Shown: positions 7,161-26,948 of the stretch, one piece after another
How the letters are laid out: every line of letters starts with the position of its first letter
How positions within the stretch are numbered: position 1 is the stretch's first letter
Assembly (NCBI GenBank): GCA_001577345.1
Contig: LSLI01000023.1
Coordinates: 1 to 33,697 of the forward strand
Length of the DNA stretch: 33,697 nucleotides
Direction of reading: 5' to 3'
From: Candidatus Gallionella acididurans
GTDB taxonomy: Bacteria; Pseudomonadota; Gammaproteobacteria; Burkholderiales; Gallionellaceae
The notes under the pieces: model-generated
Database searches by the model: none
What the model saw: the letters and a program-made list of their open reading frames with translations, nothing else
What the model was told of the DNA's origin: nothing
Translations under genes and position numbers: made by a program

Positions 7161-9380
7161 TCACTTCGCTTCCTCGCGCAGACGCAACATGCGCCACAAC
7201 CAGACCCCGAACAATAACACCGCGCCGGCTCCCATCCACAGCGGCCAGAGCACGGGCTGATTCCATGCGCGGCGCAACACGTCGCGCCGTCCGGCATCCA
7301 CGCGCCAGTATTTCAGCTTGTTGTTGGCCATCACGTTGGCTTTGACATTGCTCAGCCAGCTTTGCTGCAGCACATAATTTTTCGGATGGTAACCCCACAG
7401 CCACGGCGAGTCGCGGCGCAGGATTTCCAGCATGCGGTCTATGATCGCCTGGCGTGCCGGACTGTTTTCCATGTTCTTCATTTGCTGAAACAGCCTGTCA
7501 TATTCCGGGTTGCTGTAATTCGCCGCATTCTCACCGCCCTTGCTCACCTTGGCTTGCGCGCTACTCAACAGGAACAGGAAATTTTCCGGATCAGGATAGT
7601 CGGCATTCCATCCGTAGTAGAACATCTGTGTATCGCCCTTGCGCACCTTGTCCTGGAAACGGTTGTAGTCGGTGCTGCGCGCCACCAGCTGCACGTTGAT
7701 CTTGGCGAATTGCTTGCGCAGCCAGTCCAGCCGGGACTTGTCACCCGCCCCGCTTGCCGTGGTATCCAGATTGATCACCAGCGGCTGGTGGGTTTGCGCA
7801 TCAACGCCATCCGGATAGCCGGCTTCGGCAAGCAGCCGCTTCGCTGTTTCGACGGACTTGCGCCTGGGCGCACCATCCACCCAGTCGTACACATAGTGAT
7901 TGATCCCGGCCTCGCCGTCGCGGTAGCCGAAAATACCGGGGGGTATCGGCGACTGGGCGGCGATGCCGCGCCCATTGGCAAAAATGGAGATGAACTCCTC
8001 GAAGTCCACCGCGATCGCAATCGCCTGGCGCAGCTTGCGAGCCCTCTCAGGATCACACGATGAATCATTTCGTTTACCCCCTCTCCCTTCGGGAGAGGGT
8101 TGGGGAGAGGGAGCACTCGTTGAACTTGTGCATCCCCCACCCACAACCGGATCAAGCCAGTTGAAGCCGGTGTACATGGTTGAAGTCGCGACCGAGGTAG
8201 ACAGCCTGATACCCTGCGCCTTCATCGCATCGGTCACCGTTGCCTCGCCGCCGACATTCATCTGCACCGCCTGGTCGAAGCTGTCCGAGCTGATCCCCGA
8301 GGCATCGTAATAGCCTTGCAGGAATTTGTTCCAGTAAGGAATGGTTTCCTTTTCAAGCGTGAACACGATCTGATCGATCATCGGCAGGGGCTTGCCCGCG
8401 TCCGCCAGCAAGCCGGCGGCGGCATCGTCAGCATCTCCTTCAGCGGGGTAGGTCTCGCTGTCATAATACGGGTTGCGCGTCATCACCATGCGCCGGTTGG
8501 GATTATTCTCCGACAGGTAATAGGGGCCGCTGCCCACCGGCCACCAATCCAGAATCAGATTGCGTTCACGCATGCCGTCCTGCGCGTAAAACCGCTCGGC
8601 TTCTTCCGGCATGGGCGCAAAGAACGGCATCGCCAGCCAGTATGCAAACTGCGGGTATTTGCCGATGATTTCGATGCGGTAGGTAAGATCGTCCACCACC
8701 TGCACCCCGGGCAAGGGATACTTGTTCAGGTCGAGAAACGCGCCGGGATTTTTTTTCACCGCCTGTTGCAGGGTGGCGGCATAGTCTTTCAGGCCGACGA
8801 TATATTCGCTCATCACGCCGAAAATCGGCAGTTGCAGCAGCGGATGGGCAAGGCGCTTGATCTGGTATGCATAATCGGCTGCCGTGACGGTGCGTGTGCC
8901 GCTGCGGGGAAAGTCGCCCAATGCATGGATGCCGCTCAGATCATGCGCCGTGAGGTGGTCATACTCCAGCCTGCCCTGCGCATCACGCGCAAATGCCGGG
9001 TGCGGCTGGTAGCGCATGCCGGGTTTGATATGGATTTCATATACGCTGTAGGCGACCTTGCTCGCGGGCGCAGTGTCCGGCAACGGCCTGCGGTTCTTGT
9101 CCAGATAATGCACCGTCGGCATCGCGCTTGCCGCCAGCGGCACCAGCTCGTAAGGGCGTTTCAAATAATGATATTGCAATGGCGGCGCGTAGATCTGCGC
9201 GAGAAACTCATATTCGTTTTCGCTATATGCCTGTGCCGGGTCCAGATGCTTGGGACGTTCGGTGAACGCGGTATAAAAAATGGACTTGCCATTGTCCGAC
9301 GCCGGATAGGGGTCGTTCCACAACCCGCCGTCGCAGGCAGAAAGCAGCAGCACCCACATAAAAACAAATATGACTCTCAT
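7161..9380 (-). CDS. Family 5 solute-binding lipoprotein with C-terminal membrane helix
   Basis: 739 residues. ATG 9378-9380 starts a lipoprotein signal with lipobox LLSAC (Cys16); a longer in-frame start at 9452 would bury it, so it is rejected. The body matches SBP_bac_5 (PF00496), the periplasmic receptors of peptide/nickel ABC importers: TERPKHLDPAQAYS near the N-terminus, VGSGPYYL in the middle, and FYYGWNADYPDPENFLFLL near the end. Two oddities: a membrane helix near the C-terminus (PLWMGAGAVLLFGVWLW) then a basic tail, so the protein may be anchored at both ends; and an in-frame insertion (about residues 415-440) of a palindromic repeat coding APSPQPSPEGRGG. No ABC permease or ATPase gene is adjacent, so its partner and ligand are unknown. 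Confidence 0.88.
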   Translation of the reverse strand: MRVIFVFMWVLLLSACDGGLWNDPYPASDNGKSIFYTAFTERPKHLDPAQAYSENEYEFLAQIYAPPLQYHYLKRPYELVPLAASAMPTVHYLDKNRRPLPDTAPASKVAYSVYEIHIKPGMRYQPHPAFARDAQGRLEYDHLTAHDLSGIHALGDFPRSGTRTVTAADYAYQIKRLAHPLLQLPIFGVMSEYIVGLKDYAATLQQAVKKNPGAFLDLNKYPLPGVQVVDDLTYRIEIIGKYPQFAYWLAMPFFAPMPEEAERFYAQDGMRERNLILDWWPVGSGPYYLSENNPNRRMVMTRNPYYDSETYPAEGDADDAAAGLLADAGKPLPMIDQIVFTLEKETIPYWNKFLQGYYDASGISSDSFDQAVQMNVGGEATVTDAMKAQGIRLSTSVATSTMYTGFNWLDPVVGGGCTSSTSAPSPQPSPEGRGGKRNDSSCDPERARKLRQAIAIAVDFEEFISIFANGRGIAAQSPIPPGIFGYRDGEAGINHYVYDWVDGAPRRKSVETAKRLLAEAGYPDGVDAQTHQPLVINLDTTASGAGDKSRLDWLRKQFAKINVQLVARSTDYNRFQDKVRKGDTQMFYYGWNADYPDPENFLFLLSSAQAKVSKGGENAANYSNPEYDRLFQQMKNMENSPARQAIIDRMLEILRRDSPWLWGYHPKNYVLQQSWLSNVKANVMANNKLKYWRVDAGRRDVLRRAWNQPVLWPLWMGAGAVLLFGVWLWRMLRLREEAK
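8077..8111 (-). repeat. In-frame palindromic repeat, copy 1 (inside solute-binding protein gene)
   Basis: CCCTCTCCC (8079-8087), TTC, GGGAGAGGG (8091-8099), then the tail TTGGGGAGAGGG (8100-8111), read on the plus strand. On the gene's coding strand the tail comes first and the element is translated as PSPQPSPEGRGG. It shares stem and tail with the copies in purL and nnrD. Confidence 0.85.
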
Positions 9381-9506
9381 GGCACGAAGTTTAGCGGAAT
9401 AGCACCAGCGCGTCATGGTCAAGGTTGACACAGACTGGCAGTTGCACAACACTGTGCGCGCTGATCATCATCCATGACACCTCCGGATACGGAACAAAAA
9501 TCAACC

Positions 9507-10562
9507 ATGAACACAGACTGGCACAGCTTCCTGATCCAACACGGCGCAGCCATAGACGCCGGTGTAGTGCAGCACTTTGGCGACGCCGCTGCCGAACGAA
9601 ACGCTGCCGCGCAAAACACGGTAGTTTGCGATCTGGGCCAATTTGGCACACTGCGCGTGACCGGCGAGGAAGCGCAGTCGTTCCTGCAAAACCTGTTGAG
9701 CAATGATATTCGCGAAGCCGGCATCAAGCAGGCGCAAATCAGCAGCTTCAACAATGCCAAGGGACGGATGCTGGCGACCCTGCAGATCCGGCGTGCAGGC
9801 GAGGACTATCTGCTGCAATTGCCGCGCGTGCTGTGCGAACCGATACGCAAGAAACTCGGCATGTATGTGCTGCGCGCCAAGGTTAAAATCAGCGATGCCA
9901 GCGACGAGATCGTTTCGTTGGGCCTGTCCGGCGCAAAGGCGCTGGAGATCGTGCTGGAAAAATTCGGCGCACTGCCGGATCTCCCCCTCGGCATCACCGG
10001 AACCGCGCAGGCCAGCGCGACAAGAATGGACGTGACGCGTTTCCAGATCGACACCACTGCATCACACGCTGCCGCATTGTGGCCGGAACTCTGCCAACAC
10101 GCGCAACCGGTCGGCAGCGCGTGCTGGGACTGGCTCAACATCCGTTCCGGCATTCCAGTCATTTTGCCGCAAACCCAGGAGCAGTTTGTCGCGCAAATGG
10201 TCAATCTTGAACTCATCGGCGGGGTGAATTTCAACAAGGGCTGCTATCCCGGACAGGAAATCGTCGCGCGCATGCAGTACCTGGGCAAACTGAAGCGGCG
10301 CACGTATCTGGCACACCTGGATTACCCCGCACGTCCGGACACCAGTGGTGCGCCGCAAGCTGGCGACGAATTATTCAGTGCAGACATGGAAGGCCAACCC
10401 TGCGGCATGATCGTCAACGCGGCCCCGGCGCCCGGGGGCGGTTGCGATGTGCTGGCATCGGTACAGGTCTCCAGCCATGAGAGGAGCACGGTGCACTGGA
10501 AATCACTGCAAGGCGCGGCGCTGCGATTTTTGCCGCTGCCTTATCCGCTGCCGGATGTTTGA
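9507..10562 (+). CDS. ygfZ: YgfZ/GcvT-like folate-binding protein, Fe-S cluster maintenance
   Basis: 351 residues from ATG 9507 (MNTDWHSFL); an upstream in-frame ATG at 9474 adds eleven residues with no homology feel, and neither has a strong ribosome site. The diagnostic motif KGCYPGQE lies at residues 244-251 and includes the conserved Cys246. The N-terminal half has the FLQNLLSNDI and NAKGRMLA segments typical of the tetrahydrofolate-binding GcvT/YgfZ fold. YgfZ (COG0354) acts in the cytoplasm with folate in the repair or assembly of certain iron-sulfur enzymes such as MiaB. It is divergent from the solute-binding lipoprotein, 126 bp away, and convergent with the HPP gene. Assignment is firm. 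Confidence 0.93.
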   Translation: MNTDWHSFLIQHGAAIDAGVVQHFGDAAAERNAAAQNTVVCDLGQFGTLRVTGEEAQSFLQNLLSNDIREAGIKQAQISSFNNAKGRMLATLQIRRAGEDYLLQLPRVLCEPIRKKLGMYVLRAKVKISDASDEIVSLGLSGAKALEIVLEKFGALPDLPLGITGTAQASATRMDVTRFQIDTTASHAAALWPELCQHAQPVGSACWDWLNIRSGIPVILPQTQEQFVAQMVNLELIGGVNFNKGCYPGQEIVARMQYLGKLKRRTYLAHLDYPARPDTSGAPQAGDELFSADMEGQPCGMIVNAAPAPGGGCDVLASVQVSSHERSTVHWKSLQGAALRFLPLPYPLPDV

Positions 10563-10718
10563 GCACCGACTGCCTCCATCCGCAAACCATTCTGCACGCC
10601 AGACTATCGGCACAAGCTGCCGGGGAAATTACCGGGCAAGCCAATACCGGCTTGGACCATATGGGTACATCACAACAGGCAGCAACGGGTGAACGGAAAT
10701 TCGACTACCCTGTGTCCG

Positions 10719-11267
10719 TCAAAACCAGATTTCGGGATAACGCCGCGAAGAGGGTATGTTGTTAACCAGCACGGCCACCGCCAGCAGGACGAGCGGGCCA
10801 ATTGTGGCGGGCATTAACACATACCAAAATCCCAGTTTATGAACCGCCGGTGATCCGATAACGGCAAGAAGCGCGGTTGCGCCTCCGGGTGGATGCAGTG
10901 TGCGAGTCGCATGCATGGCCGCAATCGCCGTGGCAACTGCCACGGATTCCGCGAGCCACAAATTCTGATTCAGGAACTTCCAGCAAAGCACACCCACCAG
11001 GGCAGAGACAACATGGCCACCGACGAGATTGCGGGGCTGGGCCAGAGGACTGCGCACCGCGCCGTATGCGAGCACCGCCGAAGCGCCAAAGGAGCCGAGC
11101 ATCAATGACATGTCGCGCCCGTCGAAAAACAGATGGCTCACCAGGGCGACTCCGGAGATACCCAGGAATGCGCCTATCCAGGACCACAAGATCTCCTCGT
11201 TGCTGACCCGCGGCGGACTGCCGCGAGTCGAGCCTTTCATTTTGCCCAGATATTCGCGGAATTTCAT
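10719..11267 (-). CDS. HPP-family integral membrane protein
   Basis: 182 residues. After a basic cytoplasmic N-terminus there are four hydrophobic helices (about 28-48, 54-72, 84-120 with a break, 146-170). Family signatures are present: GSFGASAVLAYG (58-69), QPRNLVGGH (77-85) and HPPGGATAL (125-133), the motif that names the family (PF04982). Some HPP proteins of cyanobacteria and chloroplasts are nitrite transporters; whether this one is cannot be told from sequence. ATG 11265-11267 has AAAGGA six bases upstream and overlaps the TGA of the preceding CBS gene by ATGA, so the two are translationally coupled and probably work together. Confidence 0.9.
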   Translation of the reverse strand: MKFREYLGKMKGSTRGSPPRVSNEEILWSWIGAFLGISGVALVSHLFFDGRDMSLMLGSFGASAVLAYGAVRSPLAQPRNLVGGHVVSALVGVLCWKFLNQNLWLAESVAVATAIAAMHATRTLHPPGGATALLAVIGSPAVHKLGFWYVLMPATIGPLVLLAVAVLVNNIPSSRRYPEIWF

Positions 11268-11893
11268 GGCAATTCCTTTAATTTGTAAGCGGCAAAGAAA
11301 TTCTTTCTCAGCAGCAAGCCGAGCAACCTGCCGTCAGTTCCAACTACCGGCATGCTGCGGCCGCCGTGACGGTGAAACGCATCCAGCATCTCGACGAACC
11401 CCGCATCCTGACCGATTGTCACTATCGGCTGGGTCATGGCTGCGCCCACAGTCGTTTCATGAAAACTGTGGGTGAACTCGAACGAGTCGTCGAGCAGTTT
11501 CAACAGCAATTCCAGGAAGTTCTCAGCCTTCAGGCGTTTCAGGAAGTCGGTCTCGGTGAGCATGCCCAGCACGTATCCACTGGCATCCACGACCGGCAGC
11601 CCCTTGTAGCCGGAATCTGCAATTTCCCTGGCTGCAATGTCGAGTGTCGTATCGGGGTTTAGGGGTTTTACGCCGCCCCGCATCAGGCGCCCGGCCGTTA
11701 CCCCCGCAAACATGCGCTGAAGCGCATGGCGATGGGCAAGGTGATAAATCGAACGAAAGTCCTCGGTGGAGATGTCCAGATAGCCCGGTATATGCCGCAT
11801 CGCATCCAGGATATCGTCATCGGTAAGCTCCAATTCATCCGAACCCGTGTCGGAAAAATCATTTGTATTGTCTTCCGGCAATGTCTGTTTCAT
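11264..11893 (-). CDS. CBS-pair regulatory protein coupled to the HPP gene
   Basis: 209 residues, soluble. An acidic N-terminal segment with a helical region (residues 20-65) precedes two CBS motifs: CBS1 at about 66-122 (GRLMRGGVKPLNPDTTL, then GLPVVDASGYVLGMLTETDF) and CBS2 at about 148-200 (AAMTQPIVTIGQDAGF, then MPVVGTDGRLLGLL). CBS pairs bind adenine nucleotides and gate attached or partner proteins. The stop codon overlaps the start of the HPP membrane protein gene, so I infer that this protein is its cytoplasmic regulatory subunit; in some genomes the two domains occur in one chain. No clear ribosome site precedes ATG 11891-11893. Confidence 0.88.
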   Translation of the reverse strand: MKQTLPEDNTNDFSDTGSDELELTDDDILDAMRHIPGYLDISTEDFRSIYHLAHRHALQRMFAGVTAGRLMRGGVKPLNPDTTLDIAAREIADSGYKGLPVVDASGYVLGMLTETDFLKRLKAENFLELLLKLLDDSFEFTHSFHETTVGAAMTQPIVTIGQDAGFVEMLDAFHRHGGRSMPVVGTDGRLLGLLLRKNFFAAYKLKELP

Positions 11894-12195
11894 TTGTAGA
11901 TCAATATCCGATGTGATTTTTATGGAAGGCTACTTGTGAAGTTGCGTACATACAAAAATACCCGGTTGAGCAGACCCGTTCACGGCTCAAGCGCCATGAT
12001 TGTAGCACTGGCATTCCCGGGCAGTGAATTTTTGCCATAGTTCGCGACTATACGGTCCGGCCCGAGCAGCAGCCCCGCAGATGGCGTGTATGGATCAAGC
12101 CGAAGCATGCATTGCCGGCACACTACGGCGCGCTCCCGGTACTCAAGCGCACGCCGGAAGGATAGGTCAAACCGGAGCCGGGAAATGACGGATTG
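11894..12195. other. Intergenic stretch, no gene seen
   Basis: 302 bp between the CBS gene start and the acetyltransferase stop. A plus-strand open frame from 12086 is short and runs antisense into the acetyltransferase gene, and I do not accept it. The CBS-HPP promoter must lie near 11900-11960; no confident -35/-10 pair is seen. Confidence 0.5.
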
Positions 12196-12624
12196 CTATA
12201 GTTGCAGGGTCATCTTGATGTGCGGCAGTCCGGCATCGATGAATTCCTCGCCCTGCTCGGCGAATCCGAAGCCGCGATAAAACGGCAATGCCTGGGTTTG
12301 CGCATCCACGTCCACCTCCTTGTAGTCATGTGCGCGGGCGTAATCCAGCAGCGCTTCCACGATCGCCGTGCCGACTTTTTTCTTGCGCCACTGCTGCATC
12401 ACCGCGATGCGGCCGATGTGCCCATTGGAAAACATCCTTCCGCAACCGATAGCTTCGCCGCGCTGGCTGAGTGCCAGCGCATGGCGGCAGCTCTTGTCAA
12501 ATTCGTCCCACTCCAATTCTGCCGGGACACCCTGCTCCCGGATAAACACCGCCTCGCGTATCGATTTCAGCAAAGGTTCACCGTCGTGCCAGCAAACCAG
12601 GCTAACCGTAAAAGGATTGCTCAT
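12196..12624 (-). CDS. GNAT-family N-acetyltransferase
   Basis: 142 residues, the size of a single GNAT domain (PF00583/PF13673). The acetyl-CoA-binding motif A is GRIAVMQQWRKKKVGTA in the middle of the protein, with the usual V-x-x-x-x-R-x-x-x-(I/V)-G-(T/S)-A pattern. The C-terminal strand-loop ALPFYRGFGFAEQGEEF is the standard motif B end. The family moves the acetyl group of acetyl-CoA to an amine; the substrate is unknown. ATG 12622-12624 has GGGAGG at six bases, an excellent ribosome site. It lies 20 bp downstream of the L,D-transpeptidase gene on the same strand and may be the last gene of a tadA-transpeptidase-acetyltransferase unit. Confidence 0.9.
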   Translation of the reverse strand: MSNPFTVSLVCWHDGEPLLKSIREAVFIREQGVPAELEWDEFDKSCRHALALSQRGEAIGCGRMFSNGHIGRIAVMQQWRKKKVGTAIVEALLDYARAHDYKEVDVDAQTQALPFYRGFGFAEQGEEFIDAGLPHIKMTLQL

Positions 12625-12644
12625 GCCAACCTCCCTGTGGAAAT

Positions 12645-13723
<1,079 letters not shown>

Positions 13724-13730
13724 TTACCCC

Positions 13731-14189
13731 ATGTCAGAAAAAAAAGTTGCGGATTTTTCCCTGCCAGCCACGGGCAACAGAACCTTCACCCTGTCCGGCG
13801 CGCGCGGCAAGCATCTGGTCATATATTTCTACCCCAAGGACAACACTCCGGGCTGCACCACCGAGGCGCAGCAGTTCCGCGATTTGTATCCCGAATTCAA
13901 CCGGGCGCATTGCGAAGTGGTGGGTATTTCGCGCGACAGCCTCAAGTCGCATGAAAACTTCAAGGCCAGATTCGCCCTGCCCTTCGAGTTGCTTTCGGAT
14001 AGCGATGAAACCGCATGCAATCTGTTCGGTGTGATCAAGCTAAAGAACCTGTACGGCAAGCAGGTTCGCGGCATCGAGCGCAGCACCTTCGTGTTTGACA
14101 GGGACGGTGCGTTGTGCCGCGAATGGCGCGGACTCAAAGCCGACGGCCATGCACAGGAAGTGCTGGATTTCGTCACAACTCTCAACTAA
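13731..14189 (+). CDS. bcp: Thioredoxin-dependent peroxiredoxin, Bcp/PrxQ type
   Basis: 152 residues from ATG 13731 (MSEKKVADF); longer in-frame starts add unrelated sequence. The peroxidatic site is YPKDNTPGCTTEA with Cys42. E. coli Bcp has its resolving cysteine five residues later, but that position is Gln47 here; Cys61 and Cys96 remain, and Cys96 lies near where some PrxQ proteins carry a resolving cysteine in helix 3. The enzyme reduces hydroperoxides with electrons from thioredoxin in the cytoplasm. It is divergent from tadA and is followed after 9 bp by phoH, so it probably leads the plus-strand run. Confidence 0.94.
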   Translation: MSEKKVADFSLPATGNRTFTLSGARGKHLVIYFYPKDNTPGCTTEAQQFRDLYPEFNRAHCEVVGISRDSLKSHENFKARFALPFELLSDSDETACNLFGVIKLKNLYGKQVRGIERSTFVFDRDGALCREWRGLKADGHAQEVLDFVTTLN

Positions 14190-14198
14190 AGGAACGCC

Positions 14199-15614
14199 AT
14201 GACTCCGCGCAATCAATCTGCGAAAAACACCGAAACCAAATTGTTCGTATTGGATACCAACGTGCTGTTGCACGACCCGACCAGCCTGTTTCGCTTTGAA
14301 GAGCACGATATCTGCCTGCCGATGTTCGTGCTGGAAGAACTGGACAACAAGAAAAAAGGCATGACCGAGGTTGCCAGAAACGCGCGCCAGGCCAGCCGCT
14401 TTCTGGACCAGATCGTCAGCGACGCGCCGCACAGAATCGAGGAGGGTATTGCCCTGGAATCTGCCGCACACAAGAATTGCACCGGGCGGTTGTTTCTGCA
14501 GACCAGTTTCGTCAAATACGAGTTGCCGCAAAATCTGGAACTGGGCAAGGCGGACAACGCGATACTCGGTGTTGTCATCGGCCTGCAGAAACAGCAACCG
14601 CAGCGCCCGGTCATCCTGGTCAGCAAGGATATCAACATGCGCATCAAGGCGCGTGCCCTTGGCCTGGAAGCGCAGGACTATTTCAACGACAAGGTTCTGG
14701 AAGACAGCGACCTGCTCTACACGGGCGTGCTTCCGTTGCCGGCTGATTTCTGGGAACGCCACGACAAGGACATGAAATCCTGGCAAAAGGACGGCCACAC
14801 CTATTACCAGATACAGGGCCCGCTGTGCGGGGCGTTCTTCGTCAACCAGTTCGTCTATCAGGAAAACGGCGATGCGCCATTCTATGCCGTGGTGCTGGAA
14901 CAGAACGACCATACCGCGCTGTTGCGCACGCTGACCGATTACACGCACAGCAAGAACAACGTGTGGGGCATCACCGCGCGCAACCGCGAACAGAACTTCG
15001 TGCTCAATCTGCTGATGAACCCGGACATCGATTTCGTTACGCTGCTGGGACAGGCCGGCACCGGCAAGACCCTGCTGACGCTGGCGGCGGGACTGCTGCA
15101 AACACTGGAGACCAAGCTGTATTCAGAGATCATCATCACCCGCGTGACGGTCCCGGTCGGCGAAGACATCGGCTTCCTGCCCGGGACCGAGGAAGAGAAG
15201 ATGACCCCGTGGATGGGCGCGCTGGAAGACAATCTTGACGTGCTGAACAAGTCCGACGACGAAGGCGGTGATTGGGGGCGTGCCGCAACGCGCGATTTGA
15301 TACGCTCGAGAATCAAGGTAAAATCGCTCAATTTCATGCGCGGACGCACCTTTCTCAACAAGTATGTGATCATAGACGAGGCGCAAAATCTCACACCCAA
15401 ACAAATGAAGACGCTGGTCACCCGGGCCGGGCCGGGCACCAAAGTGGTGTGCATGGGCAATATCGCCCAAATCGATACGCCCTATCTCACCGAAGGCAGT
15501 TCCGGCCTGACCTATGTGGTGGATAGGTTCAAAGGCTGGCAGCACGGCGGGCACGTCACGCTGATGCGCGGCGAACGCTCGCGGCTGGCGGACCACGCGG
15601 GTGAAGTACTATAG
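14199..15614 (+). CDS. phoH: PhoH-like ATPase with N-terminal PIN domain
   Basis: 471 residues, the PhoH2 arrangement. The N-terminal PIN nuclease-like domain starts KLFVLDTNVLLHDP (catalytic Asp19) and continues with PMFVLEELDNKKKG and the second acidic site in LVSKDINMRIKA. The C-terminal PhoH ATPase has Walker A GQAGTGKT (284-291) and Walker B VIIDEAQ (390-396), followed by MGNIAQIDTPYL. PhoH2 proteins of mycobacteria are RNA helicase/RNases; this one probably acts on RNA in the cytoplasm. AAAGGA six bases before ATG 14199 supports the start. It is 9 bp after bcp and 6 bp before msrB, clearly in one transcription unit. Confidence 0.94.
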   Translation: MTPRNQSAKNTETKLFVLDTNVLLHDPTSLFRFEEHDICLPMFVLEELDNKKKGMTEVARNARQASRFLDQIVSDAPHRIEEGIALESAAHKNCTGRLFLQTSFVKYELPQNLELGKADNAILGVVIGLQKQQPQRPVILVSKDINMRIKARALGLEAQDYFNDKVLEDSDLLYTGVLPLPADFWERHDKDMKSWQKDGHTYYQIQGPLCGAFFVNQFVYQENGDAPFYAVVLEQNDHTALLRTLTDYTHSKNNVWGITARNREQNFVLNLLMNPDIDFVTLLGQAGTGKTLLTLAAGLLQTLETKLYSEIIITRVTVPVGEDIGFLPGTEEEKMTPWMGALEDNLDVLNKSDDEGGDWGRAATRDLIRSRIKVKSLNFMRGRTFLNKYVIIDEAQNLTPKQMKTLVTRAGPGTKVVCMGNIAQIDTPYLTEGSSGLTYVVDRFKGWQHGGHVTLMRGERSRLADHAGEVL

Positions 15615-15620
15615 GGAATC

Positions 15621-16016
15621 ATGGTCAAGCCGATCGAAAAATCTGATGCCGAATGGCGCGATGAGCTCACTCCCGAGCAATATCAGGTGTGCCGCCAGTG
15701 CGGCACCGAACCTCCGTTCACCGGGAGCTATTGGGATTGCCATGATGCCGGGATTTATCGCTGCGCCTGTTGCGGCAATGCTTTGTTTGATTCTGCCAGC
15801 AAATTCGATTCCGGCAGCGGATGGCCAAGTTTCTGGCAGGCGCACAATTCCGAAAACATCATATCGCGGACAGATACCAGCCACGGCATGACACGAGTTG
15901 AAGTATGCTGCAAACAATGCGGGGCGCATCTTGGACATATATTCCCCGACGGGCCGCAACCATCCGGATTGCGCTTTTGCATCAACTCGGTCGCACTTGC
16001 GCTGGATAAAAATTAA
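15621..16016 (+). CDS. msrB: Peptide-methionine (R)-S-oxide reductase
   Basis: 131 residues. The SelR/MsrB domain (PF01641) has two zinc CxxC pairs, Cys48/Cys51 and Cys97/Cys100, and the catalytic RFCINS with Cys120. The enzyme reduces methionine-R-sulfoxide in proteins using thioredoxin. There is no signal peptide, so it is cytoplasmic. The N-terminal part reads [13 protein letters not shown], where most members have TRQxGTExPFTG, giving an extra Cys24/Cys27 pair of unknown use, and Cys40 could serve as recycling cysteine. It follows phoH after 6 bp; the start ATG 15621 has AGGG close upstream. Its position with bcp suggests an oxidative-damage theme. Confidence 0.95.
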
Positions 16017-16034
16017 CACTGCACCCGCATCGTT

Positions 16035-16577
16035 ATGAAAATACTATTCGATCTGTTCCCCATCCTGCTGTTCTTCATCGCCTTCAAGTTCGCGGGCATC
16101 TATGTCGCCACAGGGGCGGCTATCGTCGCCACAATTCTGCAAATCGTCTGGACAAAATACCGTCATGGCAAAATCGACAAGATGCTGTGGGTAAGCTTTG
16201 CCATCATCGTGGTATTCGGCGGCGCCACGCTGATATTGCATGACGAAAATTTCATCAAATGGAAACCTACCGTGCTGTATTGGGCGTTTTCCGTGACATT
16301 GCTGCTCTCGGATCTGCTGTTCCACAAAAACCTGATGCGCAATATGCTCCAGGAAAAGATCGCCCTGCCGCTGCATATATGGAAGCGCTTCAACCTGAGC
16401 TGGAGCGTGTTCTTTGCAATCCTCGGGTTTATCAACCTGTATGTGGCATTCCACTACTCCACCGATGTATGGGTGGATTTCAAGCTGTTCGGCTTCACCG
16501 CCTTGATGCTGGTATTCATCCTTGCCCAGGGCGTGTGGCTGTCGAAATATATGGACGAAAAAAAGGAAGACAACTGA
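16035..16577 (+). CDS. yciB: Inner membrane protein YciB (septation protein A)
   Basis: 180 residues with five hydrophobic segments, matching YciB/IspZ (PF04279). Characteristic stretches are [14 protein letters not shown] at the N-terminus, [25 protein letters not shown] in the middle and [12 protein letters not shown]. YciB is an integral inner-membrane protein needed for normal cell length and envelope integrity in enterobacteria and intracellular spread in Shigella; its molecular activity is unsettled. It is 18 bp after msrB and 13 bp before yciI, an order common in betaproteobacteria. No obvious ribosome site precedes ATG 16035. Confidence 0.95.
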
Positions 16578-16590
16578 TGTGGGTGCATAG

Positions 16591-16893
16591 ATGTGGTACG
16601 CGATCATAGGGCAGGATGTGCCGGGCAGTCTGGACAAGCGTGTTGCTGCCCGCCCGGCGCATGTTGCGCGCCTGCAAACCCTGCAAAGCGAGGGGCGACT
16701 GCTGCTGGCGGGGCCTTTCCCCGCGGTGGATGCGCTTGATCCGGGCGCGGCCGGATTTAGCGGCAGCCTGATCGTGGCCGAATTCGGCTCTTTGGCATCC
16801 GCCCGGGAATGGGCGAACGTCGACCCTTACGTGGCTGCCGGGGTATACGCGGAAGTGCGGGTTCAGCCGTTCAGGAAGACTTTTCCGCAATGA
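16591..16893 (+). CDS. yciI: YciI-family protein
   Basis: 100 residues, one YciI domain (PF03795, dimeric ferredoxin-like fold). Marks are [13 protein letters not shown] at the start, [22 protein letters not shown] (shown here in shortened sense: RPAHVARLQ and LLLAGP) with the His of the putative active site, and DPYVAAGVY near the end. The biochemical role is unknown. The TGA stop (16891-16893) overlaps the ATG of the BolA gene, and it follows yciB closely, so the three are cotranscribed. Confidence 0.93.
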
Positions 16894-17156
16894 ATGAATG
16901 CGAAACCAAAATGCGCGCACGGCTTGCCGTGTTTGAGCCGGTGCAACTGGAAATCGTCGACGAAAGCCACAAGCACGCCGGGCATGCCGGCGCCCGCGAT
17001 GGTGGCGGGCATTATGTGGTGCGCATCGTTTCAGCCCAGTTTGCCGGCAAAAATACGGTTGCGCGCCATCGTATGATATATTACGCCATGGGGGAATTAA
17101 TGAAGCGCGAAATCCACGCTCTGACCATACAGGCGCTTGCGCCGGATGAACTTTAG
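16890..17156 (+). CDS. bolA: BolA/IbaG-family protein
   Basis: 88 residues. ATG 16890 overlaps the yciI stop by four bases. The BolA domain (PF01722) shows [10 protein letters not shown] (23-32), [14 protein letters not shown] (51-64, with the invariant RH motif) and [11 protein letters not shown] near the end. BolA proteins bind monothiol glutaredoxins through a shared iron-sulfur cluster and affect Fe-S trafficking and stress morphology; some bind DNA. The histidines His27, His29 and His60 are possible cluster ligands. It precedes the parvulin gene by 48 bp. BolA versus IbaG subtype cannot be decided from sequence alone. Confidence 0.92.
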
Positions 17157-17204
17157 GATAGCCACACTTCAGCCACACTTTGATAATTTTTTAGAGGAAC
17201 CGCA

Positions 17205-17993
17205 ATGTTAAAAACTGGAAAATTTGCAGCGCTGACATTACTCAGCCTACTCATGATCAACACGGCTTTTGCCGAGGACAAATCAGCCGCCATGGTTAAC
17301 GGGGTCTCGCTTCCTCAAAGCCGTGTCGAAGCGCGCGTCAAAACCGCCACTGCACAGGGCCAGGCCGACACCCCGGAACTGCGCAAGGCGATCCGTGAAG
17401 ACATGATCAGTCTCGAAGTGCTGCTGCAGGCCGCAAAGAAGGACGGGCTGGACAAGACCCCTGACGTCATAGAACAAACCGAACTCGCCAAGGACTCCAT
17501 CCTGGCCAACGCGTATGTCCAGAACTATGTCAAAAACCACCCGATCACTGATGACCAGATCAAGCAGGAATATGACAAGCTGAAGACCAATCTTGGCGAC
17601 AAGGAATACAAGGTGAGCCATATCCTGGTGGGATCGGAAGACGAAGCCAAGGCTATCATCAAGCAGCTCGGCCACAAGGGTAATTTCGAAAAAATCGCCA
17701 AGGAAAAATCCAAGGACGCCGGCTCTGCACAACACGGCGGCGCACTGGACTGGGCAGTTCCGAGCAATTTCGTTCCGCCGTTTGCCGAAGCCATGCTCAC
17801 CCTGAAAAAGGGCGCTTACACCAAAGAACCGGTTAAAACCCAATTCGGCTGGCATATCATCAAAATGGACGACATACGCCCCCTGAAAATCCCTTCATTG
17901 GAACAGGTCAAACCGCAGATACTGCAACGCCTGCAACAGGAATCGATCCAGAAGATGATTGCCGACTTGCGCAGCGGCGCAAAGATCGAGTAA
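17205..17993 (+). CDS. Periplasmic peptidyl-prolyl isomerase, parvulin type
   Basis: 262 residues. Signal peptide of 23 residues ending TAFA before EDK. A SurA-like N-terminal helical region (about 28-125) is followed by a parvulin domain (about 132-230) with VSHILVGSEDEA, GGALDWAVPSNFVPPF and TQFGWHIIKMDD. It is a probable periplasmic chaperone/isomerase that helps fold exported and outer-membrane proteins. ATG 17205 has GAGGA at about seven bases. It is the last gene of the bcp-to-parvulin run and ends at a strong terminator. Confidence 0.93.
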   Translation: MLKTGKFAALTLLSLLMINTAFAEDKSAAMVNGVSLPQSRVEARVKTATAQGQADTPELRKAIREDMISLEVLLQAAKKDGLDKTPDVIEQTELAKDSILANAYVQNYVKNHPITDDQIKQEYDKLKTNLGDKEYKVSHILVGSEDEAKAIIKQLGHKGNFEKIAKEKSKDAGSAQHGGALDWAVPSNFVPPFAEAMLTLKKGAYTKEPVKTQFGWHIIKMDDIRPLKIPSLEQVKPQILQRLQQESIQKMIADLRSGAKIE

Positions 17994-18017
17994 TCGGAAG
18001 CGCAGTCGCCACAAAAA

Positions 18018-18045
18018 GGGGATGCCGCTGGCATCCCCTTTTTTT
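18018..18045 (+). terminator. Rho-independent terminator after the parvulin gene
   Basis: GGGGATGCC (18018-18026), loop GCT, GGCATCCCC (18030-18038), then seven T (18039-18045). Nine perfect GC-rich pairs plus an upstream A run that can extend the stem; 25 bp after the stop codon. Confidence 0.93.
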
Positions 18046-18376
18046 CGTGCCGGCGCATTCTGAAAACGCACCTCAACTTCCTCGCCGCTTCCCGACCACA
18101 CGCAAAAGATTTCCATGCAATGAGCCCATCTGTAAATCCGGGATGCACATAGATTGGCAAGGCAAACGCACAATCAGCGACTGTCCACCCGTGGAGCACC
18201 AGAAGCACGACAGAACGCAAGCCGGCGTGGAATCGCCGAACGCGACATTCGGCATGCGCTTGATTAGCAGAAATGTCAGGGCCGGGCGGCAGAAGGCTGG
18301 CACTGGACGGCGGGCAGAAACGACGTCCAACGTTTGAGTTGCATCCGCCGTTCACCGTAACAACGGTACCGGGCGA
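18046..18376. other. Intergenic stretch, no gene seen
   Basis: 331 bp between the parvulin terminator and the end of the convergent outer-membrane protein gene. Open frames on both strands are short, lack ribosome sites and resemble no family I know. I see no repeat or second terminator. Confidence 0.5.
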
Positions 18377-19027
18377 TCAGAACGTATAACCGACGCCTAT
18401 GGAAATGACCGGGTAGAATTTGTAACTGCTCATCGAACTGTTCAAGTCGCTGTTGGCTTGGCTGATGTCCGCGCTAGTCACGTTAGGAATGTTGGTCGTG
18501 ACGTTTGCCTTGGGTGAGCCCTGATACATGATGCCTATATCGCTGGTGAACGACAGGCCCGTGTTTTTCGGGGTTCTTCCCCAGCCTATCCCCAGATAGG
18601 GAGCCACTTTCTTGAATTCGATCGCGGCATTTACAGATTGCCCGGAGGTGACACCGGTATAAGTCTGTCCGCCAATATTGACACTGCCGGCTGTAGGCCG
18701 TGCAGTCATATTCACACTGTTGTTGTTGTAGATGAGGCCGCCGCTCATGCGGAAGCTGCCGGCAAAGGGGTGCCAATCGGCCAGTGCTTCCAGGCTGCTC
18801 AGGTTCAAGTCACCGTTATAGTCTGTGGTAAGCCCGTTCGAAGTGGATGTCTTGTTGAGGTTGTACTTGTAGGTATTCAGCCCGATGCGCCCATCGATTG
18901 ATTGCGCCATCGGAAAGGCCACTTCCATGCCCAAGCCCAACGTGGAGACCTTGCCATTGATCGTGACGTCCGCGTATGCAGGAAGGGTGAGCGCGGAGAA
19001 GGCTGTCGCGAAAATTATTTTCTTCAT
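18377..19027 (-). CDS. Outer-membrane beta-barrel protein
   Basis: 216 residues: signal peptide MKKIIFATAFSALTLPAYA then DVTINGKVSTLGLGMEV, the first strand of a barrel. The chain alternates polar and hydrophobic residues, has LGLGMEVAF, MSGGLIYNNN and APYLGIGWG strands, and ends GVGYTF with the terminal phenylalanine recognised by the BAM machinery. Length and strand count suggest an eight-stranded barrel similar to OmpA/OmpW-like small porins; the exact family is not recognised. AAAGGA lies nine bases before ATG 19025-19027. It stands alone on the minus strand. Confidence 0.82.
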   Translation of the reverse strand: MKKIIFATAFSALTLPAYADVTINGKVSTLGLGMEVAFPMAQSIDGRIGLNTYKYNLNKTSTSNGLTTDYNGDLNLSSLEALADWHPFAGSFRMSGGLIYNNNSVNMTARPTAGSVNIGGQTYTGVTSGQSVNAAIEFKKVAPYLGIGWGRTPKNTGLSFTSDIGIMYQGSPKANVTTNIPNVTSADISQANSDLNSSMSSYKFYPVISIGVGYTF

Positions 19028-19161
19028 TGTTCATTGTCCTTTGATAAACGGTGGGGGTTGGGATCGCAAAATAATTTCACCCGAATTTCAATGCAGCAAT
19101 CCCAAAAAGCAGGACGTGCGGCGGTGTTGAAGCACATGCTAGTCGCCCTATGTACTCAAGG

Positions 19162-22100
19162 TCAAGCCTGGCCCACCCACTTCCTTGCATTCTGGAACAT
19201 CTTCAGCCATGCGCCGTTCTCCTGCCAGCCATACGGATGCCATGAATTCTGCACGGCACGGAACACCCGCTCGGGATGCGGCATCATGATCGTGAAGCGC
19301 CCGTTCGGCGTGGTCAGGCCGGTGATGCCCTGCGGCGAGCCGTTCGGGTTGAGCGGATAATCCTCGGTCGTATTGCCGCGATGATCCACATAGCGCAGCG
19401 TGACCAGTTTCTGTGCCGCCTTGAGGTGCTTTTCATCGCGGAAATCGGCATAGCCTTCGCCGTGCGACACCACGATGGGCATGCGGCTGCCCGCCATGCC
19501 GTCAAACAGGATAGACGCCGAGGGCTGCACCTCGACCATCACGAAGCGCGCCTCGAATTGCTCTGAGCGGTTGCGCGTGAAGTGCGCCCAGCTTTCCGCG
19601 CCAGGAATGATCTCGTGCAGCTTGCTCATCATCTGGCAGCCGTTGCACACGCCCAGCGCAAAGGTATCACTGCGCTGGAAGAACGCCTCGAATTCGTTGC
19701 GCGCCCTGGCGTTGAACAGGATGGATTTCGCCCACCCTTCGCCGGCCCCCAGCACGTCGCCGTAAGAGAACCCGCCGCACGCCGCGAACCCCTTAAAATC
19801 CGCCAGATTGACGCGGCCGCTGATGATGTCGCTCATATGCACATCCACCGCGGCAAACCCGGCGCGATCGAAAGCCGCCGCCATCTCTGCCTGGCCGTTC
19901 ACGCCCTGCTCCCGCAGAATCGCGATTTTGGGGCGGGTGCGCAACAGTGAGGGGGAAATCTTCTCGTTCAGGTCATAACTCAATTTGATGTGCAAGCCGG
20001 GGTCGGCGGCATCCAGCAGCCTGTCGAACTCCTGCAGGGCGCAATCCGGATTGTCGCGCAGCTTCTGCATCCGGTAGCTGGTCTCCGACCAGATGCGCTG
20101 CAGATTGACGCCGCTTTCCGCAAACAATGTTTTACCGTCGCGGGAGATCACTATCATGCCTGTCTGGTTCAATGTGGCGATCTTCTGCACGCTCTTCAGC
20201 CCGGCAGCGCGCGCCATTTCCAGGACATGTTCGACATCGCGGTTGCGCACTTGTATCACCGCGCCGAGTTCCTCATTGAACAAGGCGCGCAATGTATCCC
20301 CGTGAGACTCGTCAAGGCTGATGTTCAACCCGATGTGTCCGGCGAAAGCCATTTCACACAGCGTTACGAACACACCGCCGTCGGAACGGTCGTGATAGCT
20401 GAACAGCTTGCCCTCGACGTTCAGCCTTTGTATCAGCTCGAAGCAGGACTTGAGCAGCAGCGCATCGTCGACATCAGGCGCGACATCGCCGACCTGCTTG
20501 TACACCTGCGCCAATGCCGAGCCGCCCATGCGATTCTTGCCCTGGCCGAGATCGATCAGCAGCAGCGTGGTGTCCAGGAACGGCGCCAGTTGCGGCGTCA
20601 GTGTTTCGCGCGCATCGGGACAGGGCGCGAAAGCGGTGATGATCAGGGACAGCGGCGCTGTGACGGACTTGCTTCCCCCCCCGTCCTGCCACACCGTCTT
20701 CATCGACATCGAATCCTTGCCGACCGGAATACTGATGCCGAGCTGCGGGCACAGCTCCATGCCCACCGCGCGCACCGTGTCGAACAGCGCCGCGTCCTCG
20801 CCATGATGCCCGGCTGCAGCCATCCAGTTCGCCGAGAGTTTGATGTCGCTGATCTTGTCTATGCGCGTCGCCGCGATGTTGGTGAGCGCCTCGCCCACCG
20901 CCATGCGCCCCGAAGCCGGCGCATTCACCAATGCCAGCGGAGTACGCTCGCCGATCGCGAACGCCTCGGCGCGATACGTGTTGAAACCCATCAGCGTGAC
21001 GGCAACATCGGCCACCGGCACTTGCCACGGGCCGACCATCTGGTCGCGGGCCGTCATGCCGCCCACGCTGCGGTCGCCGATGCTGATCAGGAAGTTCTTG
21101 TTCGCCACCGACGGCAGACGCAGCACACGCCCTATCGCCTCTTTCAGCCCGACCTTGGAGATTTCGCAGGTAGTCAGCCGGCGCGTTTCGCGCGCCACGG
21201 TGCGCGTCATTTTCGGCGGCTTGCCGAGCAGCACCGACAGCGGCATGTCCACCGGGTAATTGTCGAACCGCATGTCATGCACGCTGAGCTGGTCTTCTAC
21301 CGTCGTAACACCGACCACCTCGAAGGGACAGCGCTCGCGCTCGCAGAACGCGCGGAATTCTTCCAGGCGCCCGGGCGCGATCGCCAGCACGTAGCGTTCC
21401 TGCGATTCGTTGCACCATATCTGCTTGGGCGACATGCCGGTCTCGTCCAGCGGTATCTTGCGCAAATCGAAGCGCGCGCCGCGCCCGCCGCCGTGCACCA
21501 GCTCGGGCAGCGCGTTCGACATGCCCCCCGCGCCGACATCGTGTATGGACAGGATGGGATTGTTCGCGCCCATCTGCCAGCAACGGTCTATCACTTCCTG
21601 CGCGCGGCGCTGCATCTCGGGATTGCCGCGCTGCACCGAATCGAAATCCAGCTTCTCAACGTTGCTGCCGGTGTCCATGCTGGAGGCTGCGCCGCCTCCC
21701 AGGCCGATCAGCATGCCCGGGCCGCCCAGATGCACCACCAGCGCGCCGACCGGCAGATCGTGTTTGTGGGTGTGTATCGCCGCGATGTTGCCGACTCCGC
21801 CCGCCAGCATGATGGGCTTGTGGTAGCCGCGCATCTCGCCGCTGACGTTCTCTTCGAAAGTGCGGAAATAGCCGGCCAGGTTCGGTCGGCCGAATTCATT
21901 GTTGAAAGCCGCGCCACCGATCGGGCCGTCCAGCATGATCTGCAATGCGGAAACAATCCGGCCCGGCTTGCCATATTGACTCGAAACCCTCTCCCCCACC
22001 CCCTCTCCCGCCTGCGGGAGAGGGGAACCACTCTGTTCTGAGGAGAGGACGTTTGTCCCCTCTCCCACTTGTGGGAGAGGGTTAGGGAGAGGGCTGTATT

Positions 22101-23226
22101 TTTCCCACGGCTGCCCGAAGCCCGGGATGTTCAGGTTGGAAACCGAGAAGCCGGTCAGACCGGCCTTGGGCTTGGAGCCGGTACCGGTCGCGCCCTCGTC
22201 GCGTATCTCGCCGCCGGAACCGGTCGCGGCGCCGGCGAACGGCGCTATCGCTGTGGGATGGTTGTGCGTCTCGACCTTCATCAGCGTGTGCGTCAGTTCG
22301 TCGCTGAACGCGTAAGCGCCATCGGCGCGCGGATAAAATCGCTCGATGCGCGCGCCCTCGATCACCGACGAATTGTCGGAATACGCCACCACCGTGCCTT
22401 GCGGGCTGACCTTGTGGGTGTTGCGTATCATGCCGAACAGCGACATGGATTGTGCCTCGCCGTCGATTACCCAGTCGGCATTGAATATCTTGTGGCGGCA
22501 GTGTTCGGAATTGGCCTGTGCGAACATCATCAGCTCGACATCAGTGGGATTGCGCTTCAGCTTTTTGAAGTTTTCGACCAGGTACTCGATCTCGTCCTGC
22601 GAAAGCGCCATGCCCATCTCGAGATTGGCCTTCGCCAGCGCAGCGCTGCCGCCCTTCAGCACATCGACGCTGGCCAGCGCTTGCGGTTCGCCGTGCCTGA
22701 AGATCTTTTCCGCCGCGCTATCGATATCATCAAGCACCGATTCGGTCATGCGGTCATGCAGCAGCGGCAATATCGCGGCTTGTTCACCTCTGCTCAACAT
22801 CCTGCCATTGGGGGTTTTCAGGTAATACACCACGCCGCGCTCGATGCGCAGCACACCGGACAGGCCGCAATGCTTCGCGATATCCGTGGCCTTGGTAGAC
22901 CAGGGCGAGATCGTGCCCAGGCGCGGCACGACGAGCACCCGCTGCATGGCTCCGGCCTGCCCGGGTTCACCGCTGTGTTTATCCAGGCCCAGCACCTTAT
23001 CCAGCAACTTCGCCTGTGCACTGCTGAAAGTCGCGCCATGGTTTTCCGGCAATTTCGGGGCCGAAAGCGGCGGCGAATTTTTGGCTGTGCTCTCGCGCAG
23101 CACTGTGAAATAGCAGTGGCGCGTGTCAGCGATAACCACATCAGGTGCAGCCGCATGCAATGTGCTGCGCAGTTTTTCTAGGCGAAACACAGACAATGCG
23201 GCACAGCCAACAGATACACGAAACAT
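19162..23226 (-). CDS. purL: Phosphoribosylformylglycinamidine synthase, single-chain
   Basis: 1354 residues from ATG 23224-23226 ([19 protein letters not shown]); ATG 23236-23238 would add MDIP. The enzyme makes FGAM from FGAR, ATP and glutamine in purine synthesis. Visible parts: N-terminal domain, the FGAR/ATP-binding core with [13 protein letters not shown] and [11 protein letters not shown], the second AIRS-like half with [12 protein letters not shown], and a C-terminal glutaminase with nucleophile Cys1194 in [10 protein letters not shown] and His1317/Glu1319 in PHPERV. Residues 376-417 are an insertion absent from the family: between QPWE and YGKPGRIV there are two inverted copies of a palindromic repeat (reads [14 protein letters not shown] ... 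[14 protein letters not shown]). The frame is intact, so the enzyme is probably functional. It is divergent from nnrD with 69 bp between. Confidence 0.95.
21986..22025. repeat. In-frame palindromic repeat, copy 2 (inside purL)
   Basis: Tail ACCCTCTCCCCCA (21986-21998) and stem CCCTCTCCCGC (22001-22011), loop CT, GCGGGAGAGGG (22014-22024), with a flanking C/G pair. Tail-first on the plus strand, so opposite to copy 3 only 30 bp away. Translated on the purL strand as [13 protein letters not shown]. Confidence 0.88.
22055..22093. repeat. In-frame palindromic repeat, copy 3 (inside purL)
   Basis: Stem CCCTCTCCCAC (22058-22068), loop TT, GTGGGAGAGGG (22071-22081), then tail TTAGGGAGAGGG (22082-22093). 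Stem-first on the plus strand. Read on the purL strand it gives [13 protein letters not shown]. Together with copy 2 it forms an inverted pair. Confidence 0.88.
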
Positions 23227-23295
23227 GGGGATGTCCATAATATAAATCCGGGGCGCGATTATACTATGCACCACACATATGAATGACCCAAGAAA

Positions 23296-24219
23296 ATGAC
23301 CGAACGCGTCCCCGCCCCTGCCCCCGAAACCATTACCCGGAACCGGGTCATGGCTGACTTCCCGATACGCCCGCGCGACAGCCACAAGGGGATGTTCGGC
23401 ACGGTCGCGGTGCTCGGCGGCGCCTCCGGGACGGTCGGCGCGCCACTGCTGGCGGCACGCGCGGCGCTAAAGCTCGGCGCAGGCAGCGTGCATGTCGGGT
23501 TGCTGGCAGAGAATGCGCCCGTTGTGGATGCTGTGCAGCCGGAACTGATGCTGCACAGCGCGACAGATTTGTTTCGCCACCGCCCTCTCCCCAACCCTCT
23601 CCCGCAGGCGGGAGAGGGGGGAAAAGTGAAAAGCAATTTCAATCATGATGTGCTGGCGATCGGCTGCGGCCTGGGAACCTCGATTGAGGCACGGGGGCTT
23701 TTGCATGAAGCTCTGGTCAGCGACGTCGCGCTGGTGATTGATGCCGACGCGCTGAACCTCCTTGCCCGCCAGCCTGACCTGCGGGTGCTCCTGCACAACC
23801 GCATGCAAGCCACCGTGCTCACCCCGCATCCAGGCGAAGCCGCGCGACTGCTGGGCTGCGAGAGCCGCGAGATACAGTCGGACCGCATCGCGGCGGTGCG
23901 GCAACTGGCACAAAAATTTTCTTGCAGCGCGGTACTGAAAGGCGCGGACAGCCTGTGCATCACCCGCGACGGCAAATTATTCGTCAACCAGACCGGCAAT
24001 CCCGGCATGAGCAGCGCGGGCATGGGCGACGTGCTGACCGGCATGATCGCGGCCTTCATCGCGCAGGGCATGACTGCGGACAACGCGATGCTGCTGGCCG
24101 TGCACCTGCATGGCGCGGCGGGTGATGCGCTGGCCGGGCAAGGCATTGCGACAGGCATGACTGCCAGCGACGTCACCGAGTCGGCGCGGCTGCTGTTGAA
24201 CCAGTGGCTGGGCAACTAG
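23296..24219 (+). CDS. nnrD: ADP/ATP-dependent (S)-NAD(P)H-hydrate dehydratase
   Basis: 307 residues, carbohydrate kinase-like fold (PF01256). It repairs hydrated NADH and NADPH in the cytoplasm. Motifs: [18 protein letters not shown] near the N-terminus, [34 protein letters not shown] and the catalytic nucleotide-binding [16 protein letters not shown]. Many bacteria have a fused NnrE epimerase domain in front; it is absent here, so this is the dehydratase alone. About residues 95-115 are an insertion ([15 protein letters not shown]) made by the same palindromic repeat as in purL, placed just before the strand [13 protein letters not shown] 23296 has a weak AAGA ahead. It is followed after one base by the aminopropyltransferase-like gene. 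Confidence 0.93.
23583..23620 (+). repeat. In-frame palindromic repeat, copy 4 (inside nnrD)
   Basis: Tail CCCTCTCCCCAA (23583-23594), stem CCCTCTCCCGC (23595-23605), loop AG, GCGGGAGAGGG (23608-23618). Same orientation relative to its gene as copies 1 and 3, translated [13 protein letters not shown]. Confidence 0.88.
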
Positions 24220-26604: not shown

Positions 26605-26948
26605 AATCCCGGAAAACAAACCCGGAAAAAACGGGTATCCGGAATTTGTGATTGAAAAAACAAGTGACTGGTATGAGATCGAAAACAGACATAGAATTAT
26701 CTGTGAAACTATAGAATGAAGGTCTTAAACGTGCCATCTGCGGAACTTTACGCATATCAAGTTGAACGACTTGTCTCGCTAGTAAAGCGGCCTATAGCGA
26801 ATTGAATATTTGACCGGCTATTCCCGGCCAGCCAGTCAGTGGAGTTAGTCTGCTTTGGAGCATCGAATCTTGATGCCATGAAGCGCCGCAAACGAGACTG
26901 AAACGTAGTTCAAATTTCTGTAACGCATGTGTTAATCGCTTGCTGCTT
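26605..26948. other. Intergenic stretch, no gene seen
   Basis: 344 bp between the convergent GIDE-like and histidine kinase genes. It is more AT-rich than the DNA to its left. Near 26620-26650 there are short CCGG-flanked A-rich segments without a clear terminator stem. A 29-codon open frame (26716-26805) has no ribosome site. The stretch may hold decayed DNA at the border of the Kai region. Confidence 0.45.

Follow-up and report, generated by a model that had tools for sequence, protein, structure and literature searches.

The window analysed here, the whole of a 33,697-nt contig (C23) from the 3.43-Mb, 316-contig genome of Candidatus Gallionella acididurans (G000), a relative of iron-oxidising bacteria, carries four copies of a short palindrome, one in a gene for a solute-binding lipoprotein (SBP), two in purL and one in nnrD (Table 1). 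These four copies in coding sequence had been claimed in an earlier note on this DNA, and they were recovered here, as all 12 exact matches to the motif CCCTCTCCC in the window fall within the four elements; its statement that no copy lies between genes of the window was likewise borne out. With up to one mismatch, CCCTCTCCC matched at 14 positions in the window, compared to a mean of 5.8 in shuffled sequence, and 14 matches were reached in 1 of 100 shuffles. The three-block pattern CCCTCNCCCN{2,8}GGGNGAGGGN3GGGNGAGGG, with the first loop set at 2-8 for this count, occurs nine times in the genome and not at all when read backwards. Three of these nine copies are in the window, element 2 falling outside the strict pattern owing to its longer second spacer.

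Table 1 Host genes, repeat elements and transposase gene in the window
Feature	Position	Strand	Description
SBP_bac_5 solute-binding lipoprotein gene (763 aa)	7161..9452	-	Pfam PF00496, 1.5e-42; carries element 1
One-sided conserved tag of element 1, GGTAAACGA	8070-8078	-	directly after the core
BoxC/TM element 1	8079..8111	-	33-nt core; C strand reads PSPQPSPEGRG; host SBP_bac_5 gene
purL, phosphoribosylformylglycinamidine synthase (open reading frame of 1407 aa)	19162..23385	-	carries elements 2 and 3
PurL loop insert, residues 430-469	21979..22098	-	between QPWE and YGKP; ends set where relatives' alignments stop
BoxC element 2	21987..22024	-	imperfect, 5-nt second spacer; G strand reads a 14-residue peptide; host purL
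BoxC element 3	22058..22093	-	TAA spacer; C strand reads a 12-residue peptide; host purL
nnrD, NAD(P)H-hydrate dehydratase (307 aa)	23296..24219	+	carries element 4
BoxC element 4	23583..23618	+	C strand reads a 12-residue peptide; host nnrD
IS200/IS605-family tnpA (143 aa)	30302..30733	-	NF033573, 8.4e-42; no BoxC within the 1.5 kb scanned

All four elements keep the reading frame of their hosts, and they do so in three readings and not in the two that had been claimed: the C strand gives one peptide in SBP and another, of 11-12 residues, in PurL and NnrD, and the G strand gives a third in the second PurL copy. The two purL elements are mutually inverted and separated by 33 nt. The purL gene is represented by a single match in the genome, and its insert site maps between chain residues 359 and 360 of PDB 1T3T; judged by PurL similarity, the closest named relatives of the genome include Gallionellaceae, Gallionella and Sideroxydans, with records of the genome itself possibly left out. 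For NnrD, an AlphaFold2 model with a mean predicted local distance difference test score (pLDDT) of 90.8 places insert residues 97-103 and 107-114 below 50, which shows the insert as a predicted disordered segment in an otherwise confident model.

Family identity and copies inside genes

By its sequence, the window palindrome is a member of the known BoxC/PIT/TM-ECO family, a GC-rich intrastrand-triplex motif; the earlier note had missed the name, BoxC/TM-ECO. The published TM-ECO pattern, CCCTCNCCC N3-6 GGGNGAGGG N3 GGGNGAGGG, is matched by three of the four window copies. Within the genus, 29 of the 37 genomes contain it, the zero-copy genomes being G001, G002, G004, G006, G019, G031, G034 and G036; elsewhere in the order it occurs in 4 of 24 genomes, again with no match when read backwards. 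Holder et al. 2015 (PMC4666352) report 3610 copies in 262 proteobacterial genomes and demonstrate the intrastrand triplex with E. coli oligonucleotides. A wide proteobacterial spread is described there, and the copies in this genus share the three-block sequence, the 3-nt second spacer and the inverted pairs. The 23 copies of E. coli K-12 are all intergenic according to that source, whereas copies here are often in frame in genes. The same palindrome core is found in the CCCTCTCCCXX(X)GGGAGAGGG repeats of Enterobacter sp. 638 (100 copies; PMC2869309), described as often located at gene 3′ ends and presumed to be terminators, in contrast to the in-frame copies seen here.

Among 105 distinct copies from the genus, a core of 33-37 nt is followed by a one-sided 3′ tag, RRCAAACGA, while the 5′ side is weakly conserved. 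The tag is part of the conserved unit in these genus copies and differs from both GTAG and CGTC. Core plus tag is open in all six frames in 65 of 170 copies, compared to 159 of 1025 random 45-mers and 18% of shuffled elements, and in 114 of the 170 the core has a length divisible by three. One congener, G010, has about 40 copies, many of them near-identical and belonging to one subfamily (CCCTCTCCCTCCGGGAGAGGGTTTGGGTGAGGG; loci L259-L278), most of which were not called in frame; this near-identity indicates a recent amplification or burst.

The position of copies relative to genes was determined with a codon-usage classifier for which the true frame ranked first in 483 of the 546 windows taken from its training open reading frames. 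It classified 142 of 184 strict copies in eight genomes, namely G000 (9/9), G010 (24/40), G013 (19/19), G016 (21/23), G020 (2/7), G027 (22/25), G008 (25/32) and G050 (20/29), the last from another family of the order. Of these copies, 45 were in frame, 8 were on the same strand in a different frame, 2 were in the same frame with a stop, 53 had coding sequence on one side, 30 were non-coding, 2 were on opposite strands and 2 were at edges. The in-frame copies were distributed as 5 in G000, 3 in G010, 9 in G013, 12 in G016, none in G020, 7 in G027, 5 in G008 and 4 in G050. The frame was kept in 45 of 55 intragenic copies, compared to the one third expected if frame were irrelevant (P = 2e-13), and this test is conservative, since some of the shifted cases may be neighbouring genes. 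In the window genome, one copy classed as 'opposite strands' proved by eye to be in frame in an RNB-domain gene, so that six of the nine exact copies (five by classifier, one by eye) are in frame in genes, and the genome-wide count proposed in the earlier note favours its reading. A copy on another contig of this genome (C64; L010 1501-1534) lies near the 3′ end of an open reading frame that looks HsdS-like and contributes a large part of the C-terminal tail.

Each of the 45 in-frame hosts has a Pfam match. NCBIfam names among the hosts tested are LysA, SucB, AcnA (aconitase), ValS, Tgt and MurC; from their Pfam matches, the others are read as probable acyl-CoA dehydrogenase, EPSP synthase-cytidylate kinase fusion, HsdR, GcvPA, polyprenyl synthetase, BioA, CoaBC, MutS, FolC-like, MetG, TilS, PolA, PheT, RecQ, MutL, IPP transferase, ferrochelatase and U32 peptidase proteins. 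In LysA, SucB/OdhB, GcvPA, MurC and BioA, the insert sits at an equal position, or within a few residues of it, in two to three genomes. Five of the six frames are in use among the first 29 hosts (30 elements), with one 12-residue reading accounting for 15 of the 30.

This behaviour resembles that of the Rickettsia palindromic elements (RPE), which lie in frame in conserved Rickettsia protein genes and are apparently tolerated there (PMC2229807, PMC3733652), a likeness proposed in the earlier note and upheld here for BoxC in unrelated conserved proteins. The descriptions of RPE set them apart, as they are 105-146 bp long and Rickettsia-specific, compared to a widespread BoxC core of 33-37 nt with a 9-nt tag. 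Repetitive extragenic palindromic (REP) sequences of the GTAG/CGTC type are also known from within conserved genes, among them repair genes and tRNA synthetases, in several species, with dimers encoding 20-30 residues and with one REP at about the same recB site in two Xanthomonas species (Di Nocera and colleagues 2013, PMC3733652). Those REPs end in GTAG or CGTC, which the BoxC copies here lack, and the main text of that paper contains neither GGGAGAGGG nor BoxC. Coxiella QMITE1/2 (PMC5896051) and NEMIS and RU (PMC2229807) are small mobile repeats that, as BoxC does here, add in-frame peptide to genes; as described, they are larger than BoxC and have terminal inverted repeats, and QMITE affects functional genes at their 3′ ends. 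No report of in-frame BoxC was found in the literature searched, which consisted mostly of titles and abstracts, with thin coverage of subscription papers.

Filled and empty loops in related genomes

Comparison with congeners shows the segments to be insertions relative to orthologues, as in each of the three genes many congeners have a short, empty loop. Loop types were assigned by eye in the top-ranking loci of each search, at most 30 (for SBP and NnrD, 30 loci from 37 matching genomes). PurL was matched in 34 of the 37 same-genus genomes searched and its loop was read in 28, of which 13 are empty (3 aa, QPWExxYGKP), 8 hold BoxC or a remnant of it, 5 hold a GAAGGG-type repeat and 2 hold other short extra sequence. 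In SBP, 20 of 30 loops are empty (5 aa), 5 contain BoxC or degenerate BoxC, 3 contain BoxC with a nested second repeat and 2 are of other types. In NnrD, 27 of 30 loops were readable, comprising 16 empty loops (13 aa), 7 with BoxC or degenerate BoxC (in two cases interrupted and disrupted by additional repeat sequence), 2 of PAQAGIQ type and 2 others. In G006 and G022, the rows nearest the window genome, the loops are empty wherever they were read (PurL of G022 was unread). The PurL segment was also sought in more distant orthologues; the 80 named PurL loci compared, which range from Gallionellaceae to Pseudomonas, comprise 63 with a loop of 3-4 residues, 17 with a longer one and none with the BoxC peptide.

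The presence of inserts is patchy, and filled loops recur across the genus. On a tree of 37 rows from which the insert columns were left out, at least nine changes between presence and absence are needed for PurL, at least eight for SBP and at least six for NnrD; these counts are rough, because strong support is limited to 12 of the 34 branches and 8 rows are less than half filled. In one congener (L037), the PurL insert is bordered by a clean direct repeat of 6 nt (CAATAT), a single case that hints at target duplication and at a route to exact deletion of the insert.

Several of the loops contain sequence other than BoxC. A second repeat (GAAACnnCTAGCCATTCGACTA...GTCGCTGGTTATCC) is nested in BoxC with the frame kept in two unrelated genes, in the SBP loop of L231, L237 and L249 and in the NnrD loop of L227. 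Two further repeats, encoding (S)V(I/M)PAQAGIQ... and KPFALSSSKGN, occur in the NnrD loop of L202, L217 and L203. In the PurL loop of L031, L034, L035, L038 and L046, a GAAGGG/CCCTTC-type repeat occupies the BoxC site, with similar flanking residues. In the long SBP loops of L229-L233, L236, L237 and L249, cysteines flank the insert (two in L236, L231 and others), and in L233 the cysteine loop lacks BoxC, possibly reflecting the state before insertion or one left by deletion.

Possible origin and movement of the repeats

Given these observations, we consider it likely that BoxC/PIT/TM-ECO repeats are small non-autonomous insertion sequences that are often intragenic in this Gallionellaceae genus and survive where they preserve the frame in tolerant loops. 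Insertion would be fairly indifferent to genes, and harmful insertions would be purged as cells with a broken protein were lost. Insertions with a length divisible by three that fell in a tolerant surface loop would persist, with little effect on fitness, as disordered Pro/Gly-rich stretches of about 12-40 residues, and the enlarged loop would become a safe site for renewed insertion, decay and deletion; the repeats may be mobile at the present day. A stronger proposal, which we regard as plausible while stopping just short of calling it probable, is that certain loops of housekeeping enzymes are recurrent landing sites, where BoxC and unrelated repeats enter, nest and leave at the same residue positions across the genus, as a continuing source of new protein segments with a turnover faster than species divergence.

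A live candidate for the mover is a REP-associated tyrosine transposase (RAYT) acting in trans, with BoxC as its REP-like unit, an identification that we hold to be rather unlikely on the present evidence. The palindrome with a one-sided conserved tag, and the inverted pairs, would fit such units, and so would the distribution of Y1 transposase genes. Those not of the IS200 type occur in 26 of 29 BoxC-positive and 2 of 8 BoxC-negative congeners (P = 0.0008), and in 15 of 15 and 1 of 7, respectively, when genomes below 90% completeness are set aside, and their number correlates with that of BoxC (Spearman 0.64), compared to no link for IS200-like genes (8/29 and 4/8). For all ten non-IS200 genes tested, the best-matching model is NF047646 REP_Tyr_transpos, and six of them exceed its cut-off. 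When corrected for kinship, however, the co-occurrence comes down to five independent pairs, about 3.5 concordant and 0.3 discordant, and is not significant (median P 0.25), and no RAYT-type gene was found in the BoxC genomes G012, G022 and G035, none of which is more than 85% complete. BoxC is also missing beside the genes, with a hairpin at 1 of 33 scanned Y1 loci (of 87 matches; flanks up to 1.5 kb), about 1.4 kb away, and a second look at 22 loci found no adjoining BoxC hairpin except in L117 and a disrupted nnrD copy in L113. The earlier note had proposed looking for a RAYT, and the window genome does have a true one elsewhere (L004; NF047646, 194.7 bits); it is flanked on both sides (1330-1355 and 1966-1991) by a hairpin, GTCGGGTTAGYGTAGCGTAACCCGAC, that is unlike BoxC, and the Y1 gene of the window itself is the IS200/IS605 tnpA, without flanking BoxC. 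The BoxC tag, moreover, is neither of the two REP tetranucleotides. Taken together, the lack of adjacency and the co-occurrence across genomes, not significant on independent pairs, leave a RAYT acting in trans possible and unproven.

Three congeners have a Y1/RAYT-type gene about 170-190 bp from nnrD, and in a fourth the distance is about 780 bp (G009:C5, G018:C65, G020:C54, G027:C5); the genes of G027 and G009 match the RAYT model. The window tnpA is enclosed, together with a sensor kinase gene and a KaiC-like gene, by a 23-nt inverted repeat pair (26633-26655 and 31116-31138) that is 96% complementary. Long copies had suggested a full-length miniature inverted-repeat transposable element (MITE) of about 125 bp with TAACG...CGTTA ends, which was set aside because its left arm occurs mostly without BoxC; an all-against-all comparison revealed no obvious autonomous MITE copy, and the MITE-like left arm was treated as a neighbouring second repeat. 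This second hairpin arm (GCCATGCCCGTT) is on the 5′ side of 34 of 167 BoxC copies, and BoxC is within 110 bp at 7 of 28 assessable arm loci (2 of 30 were unassessable, and some loci are two arms of one hairpin). As a separate hairpin repeat, AACGGGCATGGC...GCCATGCCCGTT (L379-L408), it has 63 arm matches in G010 and 33 in G008 and sometimes adjoins BoxC.

The patchy inserts could also derive from one ancient insertion per gene in the ancestor of the genus, followed only by decay, nesting and repeated loss, with no recent movement. Insert flanks shared by several species within the SBP loop, and likewise within the NnrD loop, are equally compatible with such an early insertion, lost many times over, and with repeated gains. 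The host DNA beside the insert is not specially alike in carriers; spread of insert-bearing alleles by transfer was rejected, as flank identity is not raised in carriers, and is not needed under an ancient origin. Yet the short PurL loop is the outgroup state, the weakly supported tree requires many changes in each of the three genes, the burst of copies in G010 appears recent and a different repeat family occupies the PurL site in five congeners, so that we find an ancient origin without recent movement somewhat unlikely. Selection for function, in which the Pro/Gly-rich peptide would be useful as a linker or interaction segment and its spread in enzymes adaptive, seems to us an improbable explanation of the inserts. 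One frame is preferred among six and several enzymes are filled at an equal place in more than one species, but the hosts are unrelated, the other frames are, with one exception, in use as well, many sister species lack the insert in the host gene and the same loops hold other repeats with different peptides. Convergence of native low-complexity loops on Pro/Gly-rich sequence without any insertion, for which the variable length of the PurL loop in other bacteria (above 4 aa in 17 of 80 loci) could be cited, is refuted at the DNA level and retains next to no probability: unrelated genes and intergenic copies share identical stretches of 33-36 nt, which are read in several frames and from both strands.

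Several points weigh against the view of BoxC as a mobile, loop-tolerated insertion sequence. No enzyme that moves it was pinned down among the Y1/RAYT genes examined, and no consistent target duplication was found at the inserts, save the single CAATAT case. The shared insert flanks and the unexceptional host DNA of carriers, described above, belong here as well. Insert carriers are perhaps over-represented among the loop loci, since these loci are the best matches and a carrier of an insert gives one long match. The in-frame share is uneven, from 3 of 24 in G010 to 12 of 21 in G016, and the classifier called dummy positions placed at random in the same loci in frame in 234 of 480 cases, indicating that it often misses coding positions. 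The presence of the inserts in the mature proteins is predicted from reading frames, and the AlphaFold2 model of SBP was poor and unusable for its insert.

In-frame palindromes in proteins are already known from the RPE, from intragenic REPs and from MITE fusions (PMC5896051); the family, the frequency and the recurrent loop sites appear to be new. A widespread element whose structure has been studied, and for which only intergenic copies are reported in E. coli, here decorates core enzymes of environmental bacteria. For annotation, this means that peptides such as PSPQPSPxGRG or the 12-residue C-strand reading can mark repeat insertions and not domains. The co-occurrence with RAYT genes, if it holds, would point to the missing BoxC mover. 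With filled, empty, nested and replaced states at one site across congeners, the origin of lasting protein segments from selfish repeats becomes testable by comparison. If loops of housekeeping enzymes are indeed recurrent landing sites, a repeat described as intergenic in E. coli would be an ongoing source of new protein segments in this genus.

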